This document shows, piece by piece, positions 7,315 to 9,985 of a DNA stretch of 33,838 nt (position 1 is the first letter of the stretch; every line of letters starts with the position of its first letter). The position numbers and the translations under genes were made by a program. This DNA comes from Terriglobia bacterium (GTDB lineage Bacteria; Acidobacteriota; Terriglobia; Bryobacterales; Bryobacteraceae). The notes beneath the pieces are model-generated. The model was not told the DNA's origin. It saw nothing but the letters and a program-made list of their open reading frames with translations, and ran no database searches. The stretch is from contig JAIQFJ010000015.1 of the NCBI GenBank assembly GCA_020073325.1, forward strand, positions 1-33,838, in the 5' to 3' direction.

Positions 7315-7358
7315 AACGTCAATGAACATGAATGTTTTGATTCACGTTGATTGACGTT
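7315..7358. terminator. Long inverted repeat between convergent genes, possible bidirectional terminator
   Basis: AACGTCAATGAACATGAATG and its inverted partner GATTCACGTTGATTGACGTT are separated by TTTT. Seventeen of 20 positions pair. The structure fills the gap between the small protein gene (stop at 7302) and the convergent DUF5946 gene, whose stop codon touches its right edge. There is no U-run after it, and the stem is AT-rich for this genome, so a rho-independent terminator is only one reading; a protein-binding palindrome is another. Confidence 0.6.
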
Positions 7359-7852
7359 CATTCACGGCTTAAAAGGTTTTTGCAGATCTCCGCAGTCCAG
7401 CCATGCGCGTGCGACCACGACATCCACACCGCCTTCGCCCACTCCATCAGCTTCGCCTCGCGGCCCGGCCCTGGCGGTACTTCGAGCACGTCGCGAACAG
7501 TCAGCGATGCGCGCTGCTCCGGAATCTCGAATCGACCCCAGTCGCGTTTCACGCGCCCGAGTTCCATATGCGCGAGCTGCGCCTGTCGACCAGTCTGCCC
7601 CTTCTCGATCGCCAGATAAAGCCCGATCAGCGAAAACGCGATTCCGATGTTCGATTTTGTGATCAGCGAATGCTGCAACTGCCACGCGTCGACTGCATGC
7701 TGATGGATGAACCCGGGATCGCCGTGCGTCAGCGTGTACGCGGACAACTCGCCAAAGAGCCGCCAGCATTCGGGCGAGCTGTTGTGCCGCCCCTCCGGCG
7801 CGGTGCTGTCCGAAGGCAGCTCCAGTCCGCAGCCGGGGCAGAGCGAGGTCAC
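7358..7852 (-). CDS. DUF5946 family protein with zinc-finger-like N-terminus
   Basis: The 164-residue protein starts at GTG 7852, overlapping the ridA stop as GTGA; the ORF-track start at 8008 lies inside ridA and is wrong. It opens with SLCPGCGLELP, followed by a Cys in SSPECWRLFGE and the conserved FIHQHAVDAWQLQH segment, which I associate with DUF5946. The Cys and His residues could bind a metal. The middle (SNIGIAFSLIGLYLAIEKG) is a hydrophobic helix, and the rest is helical. Function is unknown; some relatives are annotated as hypothetical proteins only. Coupling to ridA suggests co-expression, not a shared pathway. Confidence 0.8.
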   Translation of the reverse strand: MTSLCPGCGLELPSDSTAPEGRHNSSPECWRLFGELSAYTLTHGDPGFIHQHAVDAWQLQHSLITKSNIGIAFSLIGLYLAIEKGQTGRQAQLAHMELGRVKRDWGRFEIPEQRASLTVRDVLEVPPGPGREAKLMEWAKAVWMSWSHAHGWTAEICKNLLSRE

Positions 7853-8232
7853 TTCGGCTGATAAGCGACGCAGTCGATTTCGACCAGCATGTCGCTGACA
7901 AACTCGCATGCGACGGTGGTGCGTGCGGGTCGATCGGTCCCGAAAAATTCGGTGTAGACCTCGTTCATCGCCTTGAAGTCGCCCGCGTTTTTGAGGAACA
8001 CGGAGCACTTCACGACATCCGCCATCGTTGCGCCGGCCGCATCCAGGATGCGTTTGATATTGGCCAGCACCTGGCGCGTCTGCTGCTGAATGTCGCCGCT
8101 GATGAGCTTGTCGGTGGTCGGGTCGATGGGACCCTGGCCGCTGACGTAGATAAAATCACCGGCGCGCACCGCGGGCGAATAGGGCCCGCGGGGCGTCGGA
8201 GCGTTGTGCGGGAAAATGCGCTCGATCGCCAT
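7849..8232 (-). CDS. ridA: RidA/YjgF/YER057c/UK114 family enamine/imine deaminase
   Basis: RidA proteins hydrolyse reactive 2-aminoacrylate and related imines released by PLP enzymes, giving keto acids and ammonia. The 127-residue protein has the family signatures: GPYSPAVRAGDFIYVSGQGP near the start, the middle VLANIKRILDAAGATMADVV, and RPARTTVACE, which places the carboxylate-binding Arg at residue 104. It is a homotrimer in known members. It begins 6 bases after the NYN-domain gene and overlaps DUF5946 by 4 bases, so it is the third gene of a leftward operon. Confidence 0.95.
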   Translation of the reverse strand: MAIERIFPHNAPTPRGPYSPAVRAGDFIYVSGQGPIDPTTDKLISGDIQQQTRQVLANIKRILDAAGATMADVVKCSVFLKNAGDFKAMNEVYTEFFGTDRPARTTVACEFVSDMLVEIDCVAYQPK

Positions 8233-8238
8233 AGAAAC

Positions 8239-9558
8239 TTAGTCGGTTTTCTTGCGGCGCGGACGGCGCGCGGCGCCGCCTCCGGCAGGTTTCGGAGCAC
8301 GCTTCCGCGCCGGAGCCTTCTTCGGCTTGGGCGGCGGCGGATTCGGCTCGAAGATGGTCGGCTGGCCTTCGACGTACGGCTGCGGCTCGTCTTCTTCCAC
8401 TTCCTCGGCGGCCGCTTCAGGCTCGGCCCGCGGCGGCTCGGCCGGCGGATAAAATTCCGCCCCGAGGTACACCAGCATGCCCTGTTCTTCGGTCGGCTCC
8501 AGGCGAACCACGGTCTTGTCCTGCGCGTAGTTCAGGAATTCCGAAAATTGCTGAAAGCCGTAAGCCGTCGGATCGAGGCTCGGCTGTTCGCCGCGGAACC
8601 AGTGTTCCAGATCCTCGATCGGACACCCGTTTTCGATCTCCAGGCGATGATTTTCCAGCACGTCGCGCAGCGGCGGCAGTAGATCCTCAGGCTTGAGGTT
8701 CGGCCGCTCCGGAGTGGTCGAGCCCTTGCGCTCGATGATATAGCGTCCGCCGGTTCCGCTCACGTTGACCAGCTCGGCGCGCTTCAGCTTTTCGACGAAA
8801 TCCGAAAAGCTCGACGCACCGTAGGCGCGTTCGTTGAAGGCCGAATCGAGCTGCAGCATGGTCGACTTCAATAAGCCAAGCTGCGGCTGCACGGCGCGAC
8901 GCTCCAGAACCTGAAGCGCGCGCTCCACCAGAGGCATGGCTTGGGAAAGCTCCAGCGGTGCCGGCCGCTGGCGGCGATCGCCGCGATCCTGCCGGTCCTG
9001 GCGATCCGGACGACCACCGCGATCGCGCGGCGGACGCTGCTCGCCCTGGCCTCCAAAAGCCGGCGCCATCGAACTGGGCGGCGCATCCGAAAGGAGCGAC
9101 TCAAAGCTGATGAACTCGTGGCAATTCTGCTGAAGAATGGTCGAGGTGAAGGCCTTGCCGCCCACCACAAACACGGTCTTGCCGTACTCCTTCAGTTTGT
9201 TGACCAGCGGAATGAAATCCGAATCGCCGCTGACGATGGCGAAGGCATTCACATGCGTATGCGTGAAGGCCATTTCCAAAGCGTCGAGCGCGAGATTGAT
9301 GTCCGCGCCGTTCTTATCGCCGCGCGGCGAGGGAATGCGCTGGACCATCTGCACGGCATTTTCCGCCATTTGTCGAGTTGCCCCGTCCTGGCGGCCCCAG
9401 TTCGCGTAGGCGAATTTGGCGACGATGTCGCCGCGTTCCTTGAGCGCTTCCAGCGCCAGGGATACGTCGAACTCACGTCGAAGCGTCGACTTGAGCCCGA
9501 TCTCGATGTTGTCGTAGTCGACGAACACCGCGATATTCAATTTATCTTGCATGAACAT
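8239..9558 (-). CDS. NYN (PIN-like) domain protein with two OST-HTH/LOTUS domains
   Basis: The 439-residue protein has an N-terminal LabA-like NYN domain (about 6-155): VFVDYDNIE supplies Asp14 and Asp16, GADINLALDALEMA supplies Asp86, and IVSGDSDF supplies Asp112 and Asp114. These form the metal-binding pocket expected of a PIN-like ribonuclease. An Arg/Gln/Gly/Asp-rich linker (about 172-200) follows, then two OST-HTH (LOTUS) RNA-binding domains at about 203-276 and 293-368, and a Lys/Arg/Pro/Ala-rich tail ending RRPRRKKTD. Predicted role: RNA-guided or RNA-targeted endonuclease in the cytoplasm; the target is unknown. It sits between a cobalamin-binding subunit and ridA. Confidence 0.9.
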   Translation of the reverse strand: MFMQDKLNIAVFVDYDNIEIGLKSTLRREFDVSLALEALKERGDIVAKFAYANWGRQDGATRQMAENAVQMVQRIPSPRGDKNGADINLALDALEMAFTHTHVNAFAIVSGDSDFIPLVNKLKEYGKTVFVVGGKAFTSTILQQNCHEFISFESLLSDAPPSSMAPAFGGQGEQRPPRDRGGRPDRQDRQDRGDRRQRPAPLELSQAMPLVERALQVLERRAVQPQLGLLKSTMLQLDSAFNERAYGASSFSDFVEKLKRAELVNVSGTGGRYIIERKGSTTPERPNLKPEDLLPPLRDVLENHRLEIENGCPIEDLEHWFRGEQPSLDPTAYGFQQFSEFLNYAQDKTVVRLEPTEEQGMLVYLGAEFYPPAEPPRAEPEAAAEEVEEDEPQPYVEGQPTIFEPNPPPPKPKKAPARKRAPKPAGGGAARRPRRKKTD

Positions 9559-9583: not shown

Positions 9584-9985
9584 TTAGGCGGCTTGCTTCA
9601 CCGAGCTGCGGATGAACTCCACAATTTCCTCCAGCGAGGCGCCGGGTTGATACACGGCGGCCACACCGAGGCGTTTTAAACTGGCGGCATCCTCATCCGG
9701 AACGATGCCGCCGACGATGACCAGCACGTCGGTCATCTGTTTATCTTTGAGCAACTCCATCACGCGAGGCACGATGGCATTGTGTGCGCCCGAAAGAATC
9801 GACAGGCCGATGACCTGCACGTCTTCCTGCAACGCCGCGTTCACGATCATCTCCGGAGTCTGGCGCAGGCCGGTGTAAACGACCTCCATACCGGCATCGC
9901 GCAGCGCGCGGGCGATTACCTTTGCGCCGCGGTCGTGTCCGTCGAGGCCGGGCTTCGCGACCAGCACCCGAATTTTGTGATCCAT
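9584..9985 (-). CDS. Cobalamin-binding small subunit (methylmalonyl-CoA mutase C-terminal domain type)
   Basis: The 133 residues form one B12-binding Rossmann-like domain, as in the C-terminal part of methylmalonyl-CoA mutase and related acyl-CoA mutases. Visible signature: [12 protein letters not shown], giving DxHxxG with His17 as the axial cobalt ligand; then SILSGAHN (SxL) and [10 protein letters not shown] (GG), the other two cobalamin-contacting motifs. It would pair with a separate catalytic subunit, which is not encoded within this window. First gene of the leftward operon: 25 bases separate it from the NYN gene. A TATAAT hexamer lies 60 bases upstream. Confidence 0.93.

Follow-up and report, generated by a model that had tools for sequence, protein, structure and literature searches.

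What does a soil bacterium do with a protein that joins a nuclease-like NYN domain to two LOTUS (OST-HTH) domains, and does the position of its gene between a B12-binding mutase subunit and a RidA-family deaminase bear on the answer? A sequence-only reading of the window, i.e. of the whole stretch of 33,838 nucleotides analysed here, had proposed a stand-alone RNA-decay or RNA-silencing factor encoded within a metabolic operon. Our analysis makes it likely that the protein is a stand-alone, accessory RNA-degrading enzyme which depends on metal for its activity and uses its LOTUS domains to hold the RNA.

The gene and its domains

The open reading frame is real. It is the single long frame running from 9558 to 8239 on the minus strand, a strand that the sequence-only reading had left unstated, and the frame translated from the plus strand of 8239-9558 contains internal stops. 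Because close homologues begin with MQ[DE]K and a GAAGAAAG stretch lies directly upstream of the second ATG, this codon (M3, position 9552) is probably the true start. A scan for promoters and terminators gave no signal clearly above chance, and Rfam matched no RNA motif in the window. In its own genome the protein is the sole one detected with a NYN domain and also the sole one with an OST-HTH domain.

Table 1. Features of the NYN-LOTUS locus and its two direct neighbours (window coordinates)
Feature	Coordinates	Strand	Basis or remark
NYN-LOTUS-LOTUS protein gene	8239..9558	(-)	439 aa; ATG at 9552 gives 437 aa
NYN (PIN-like/LabA/LK-nuclease) domain, aa 8-152	9103..9537	(-)	Pfam, invariance, fold match
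R/G/D/Q-rich low-complexity linker, aa 160-200	8959..9081	(-)	low model confidence, conservation 0.27
LOTUS/OST-HTH domain 1, aa 201-279	8722..8958	(-)	Pfam, AlphaFold, Foldseek, alignment
LOTUS/OST-HTH domain 2, aa 294-366	8461..8679	(-)	best Pfam stretch; AlphaFold, alignment
QPxVxGQP[ST] short linear motif, aa 393-401	8356..8382	(-)	48/50 Bryobacterales sequences
Basic tail, aa 403-439	8242..8352	(-)	13 K/R, 2 D/E
Methylmalonyl-CoA-mutase-type B12-binding subunit, upstream gene	9584..9985	(-)	TIGR00640, E 1.5e-52
RidA-family enamine/imine deaminase, downstream gene	7849..8232	(-)	TIGR00004, E 4.2e-38

The N-terminal domain matches Pfam PF01936 (NYN) above the cut-off (E 1.1e-33) and is the region of highest conservation, with a mean majority-residue frequency of 0.93 as compared to 0.85 in LOTUS1, 0.72 in LOTUS2 and 0.27 in the linker. 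Residues D14, D16, N17, D86, D92, E95, D112 and D114 do not vary in either of the two alignments, one of 26 and one of 50 homologues, which reach down to 44% identity. The acidic pocket is complete, as the sequence-only reading had described it, and the acids on whose conservation in close homologues that reading had staked its nuclease proposal are all conserved. In the 26-sequence alignment a NYN match is found in every member and an OST-HTH match in 25.

Pfam PF12872 (OST-HTH) matches in two stretches (E 2.4e-10), and the AlphaFold model built on the 50-sequence alignment predicts an alpha/beta NYN domain, a low-confidence linker, two winged-helix domains and a low-confidence tail. Both LOTUS models follow the helix-helix-helix-strand-strand order of a winged helix with pLDDT mostly 81-97, so that the two OST-HTH domains of the earlier reading stand. 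The NYN model is of low confidence at residues 50-58 and 74-81, and the overall pTM of 0.37 means that the domains are modelled singly and that their mutual placement is not fixed by the model; when the LOTUS pair was modelled from a single sequence, the pLDDT of 44 was too low for use. With Foldseek the NYN model matched VPA0982 (2qip, 6.6e-9) and the MARF1 NYN domain (5yaa/6fdl, 5.1e-4), and the LOTUS model matched TDRD7 (E 5.8e-3, TM 0.75-0.77 by target, rmsd 2.3) and also TDRD5. Since the predicted fold agrees with the domain assignment, it lends support that is independent of the Pfam sequence profiles.

LOTUS1 is better conserved than LOTUS2 and carries a near-invariant QLGLLKST-x2-QL, whereas LOTUS2 is more variable among relatives. 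K231 and S232 are invariant. The linker, whose R/G/D/Q-rich composition had been recognised before and was seen again, keeps its character but not its sequence. The LOTUS domains are followed by an acidic/proline stretch, the QPxVxGQP[ST] motif and a tail that is as basic as had been claimed. The motif is near-invariant among the Bryobacterales sequences in what is otherwise a poorly conserved tail, is absent from more distant members, and looks like a putative protein-docking motif.

Known relatives and proposed function

Nearly all bacterial OST-HTH proteins surveyed in 2010 (Anantharaman, Zhang and Aravind, PMC2848206) consist of an N-terminal DUF88/LK-nuclease domain and one or two OST-HTH domains, and it is from this bacterial family, for which a role as stand-alone RNA-degradation enzyme was proposed, that the MARF1/DNE1 nucleases of eukaryotes are considered to derive. 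The present gene stands alone in the same way and encodes an N-terminal NYN domain, a C-terminal OST-HTH pair and the conserved acidic pocket; it is a well-conserved, ordinary member of a family known in bacteria since that survey. What the present lineage adds is the acidic/proline stretch, the QPxVxGQP[ST] motif, the basic tail and the mutase/RidA flanks, and otherwise nothing fundamental. It is not a member of the TIGR00288 equivalog (LabA-like NYN), since its match (4.9e-11) scores 42.7 bits, far below the cut-off of 178.45. With architecture and prediction already published, our finding is a sound rediscovery. The sequence-only reading was fair in calling the bacterial members little studied, and our literature search found no bacterial full-length NYN-LOTUS protein with an enzyme assay, but the statement passes over what the 2010 survey had already described.

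The closest solved NYN domain both by sequence (2.3e-6) and by fold is that of VPA0982 from Vibrio parahaemolyticus, although the solved chain comprises the NYN domain only and its function is unassigned. Arabidopsis DNE1 has the same layout of a NYN domain and two C-terminal LOTUS domains and is an endoribonuclease in mRNA turnover, for which cleavage was tested with an active-site Asp of the NYN domain mutated (PMC10226599); it differs in being eukaryotic and in its partners, decapping factors and UPF1, which are absent from bacteria. Animal MARF1 (Limkain b1), whose structures are among the top fold matches, likewise combines a NYN endoribonuclease with LOTUS domains, but recruits eukaryotic decay factors. 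Its NYN domain was assayed with Mn2+, and mutation of two Asp residues strongly reduces the activity (PMC6294520).

How, then, might the bacterial protein work? We suggest that the two LOTUS domains would grip RNA, probably G-rich or structured, with assistance from the R/G-rich linker and the basic tail, and that the acidic pocket of the NYN domain would bind a divalent metal and cut the RNA strand internally. Sequence and structure prediction together show the domain content, the predicted fold, the invariant pocket and the conservation across the order and beyond. The metal-dependent endonuclease activity, on the other hand, is proposed by analogy with MARF1 and DNE1, and the binding of G-rich or G4 RNA by analogy with LOTUS domains, bacterial ones included, which according to Ding 2020, as cited in PMC12247748, bind G4 RNA in ELISA. 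Yet DNE1 targets contain a short G-rich motif without predicted G-quadruplexes (PMC10226599), and the G4 specificity may therefore not apply in vivo.

The same genome encodes RNase E/G (3.1e-103), which speaks against the protein as a replacement for RNase E and makes it likely that its role is accessory, as bulk decay need not depend on it. Of the two roles offered by the sequence-only reading, RNA decay is the best one, in agreement with the 2010 proposal and with the invariant pocket. RNA silencing finds no support: no Piwi gene (PF02171) was matched in the draft genome, which is about 93% complete, and there are no silencing genes beside the NYN-LOTUS gene. Together with the presence of RNase E/G, this leads us to read the protein as an accessory endoribonuclease and not as a silencing factor.

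Neighbouring genes and distribution

The gaps of 25 nucleotides to the mutase subunit and of 6 to ridA, given in the earlier reading, are both exact. The large subunit of the mutase is not adjacent here and has homologues on other contigs. The comparison of neighbours took in 80 named Bryobacterales-type loci. On the upstream side the B12-binding subunit is the direct neighbour in 62 of the 76 that could be tested, and on the downstream side RidA is so in 54 of 75, but neither was seen beside the protein in the sampled genomes of families f2 and f3 and elsewhere in the class. The gene order thus is a synteny of the lineage and no sign that the genes act in one pathway, and the metabolic neighbours are probably not a clue to function. 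Of the metabolic operon that had been claimed, what stands is an arrangement that recurs within the lineage; an operon that is functional or co-evolved is rejected, because the pairing fails outside the family.

Two further observations concern the downstream side. RidA itself matches the PADLOC model PD-T4-2_B (3.7e-31), probably through general RidA-family homology rather than as part of a defence system. Behind ridA lies a DUF5946 gene (7358-8008, minus strand), a gene that was seen close to the NYN-LOTUS homologue in none of the 80 loci; as listed its reading frame overlaps ridA, and its true start is therefore probably further in.

The NYN-LOTUS gene is chromosomal and carried by nearly all genomes of its family. 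Homologues turned up in 55 of the 61 relatives sampled and, by a single-sequence search in which the weaker matches cover the NYN domain only, in 149 of 297 sampled Acidobacteriota; the genomes listed for family f8 of the same class gave no match. Distant homologues occur on plasmids and in a few phages. Some order-level relatives (L054:5588-7507, L055, L064 and L065) have longer homologues of 544-639 amino acids, and that of L054 appears to hold additional LOTUS-like copies, so that the number of LOTUS domains may vary as it does in animal MARF1. In nine family f3 loci (L048:6122-6394, L049:5772-6038 and seven other order-level loci) an uncharacterised small protein of mostly about 90-110 amino acids adjoins the NYN-LOTUS gene in either orientation.

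Alternative roles

But could the protein bind RNA without degrading it? Its LOTUS domains might recognise specific mRNAs or G-quadruplexes and repress or protect these transcripts, with the NYN domain serving as a scaffold or very weak nuclease. Two LOTUS domains, a basic tail and an R/G-rich linker all indicate RNA binding, LOTUS proteins such as Oskar function without a nuclease domain, and conservation taken alone would be compatible with a binding-only role. Nonetheless, a pure scaffold would have no need for the pocket acids, all of them invariant in both alignments, nor is it readily reconciled with a NYN domain that is the most conserved part of the protein, and we regard such a regulator as rather unlikely. 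A more local role, in which the enzyme cuts the mRNA of its own operon and so regulates either the mutase/RidA transcript or the metabolism of propionyl-CoA, draws on the shared strand, the short gaps and the recurrence of both neighbours in the Bryobacterales. It is improbable, as sampled distant relatives keep the protein without any link to mutase or RidA and the 2010 survey found bacterial OST-HTH genes to lack conserved neighbourhoods with known RNA-processing systems (PMC2848206). Slightly less probable still is a variant restricted to the Bryobacterales, in which the nuclease would have been recruited between B12-mutase and RidA to tune that transcript and QPxVxGQP[ST] would dock a partner, e.g. 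the degradosome.

The protein might also be a defence or silencing effector directed at phage or transposon RNA, given a weak PADLOC match of its NYN domain (4.7e-8), the part played by LOTUS/MARF1 proteins in transposon control in animals, and the homologues on plasmids and phages. However, the PADLOC match spans just part of the NYN fold, the genome has no detected Piwi gene, and a chromosomal gene that is near-universal in its family and stable in synteny does not show the sporadic pattern of defence genes. We therefore consider this role very improbable, and a defence island, for which the weak match and the sporadic mobile homologues might have spoken, is rejected as ill-suited to such a gene. 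The preferred reading remains that of an accessory, LOTUS-assisted endoribonuclease. Retained in this lineage as one highly conserved copy that shares the layout of DNE1, the protein would offer a compact model for LOTUS-guided RNA cleavage as a possible ancestral function in bacteria.
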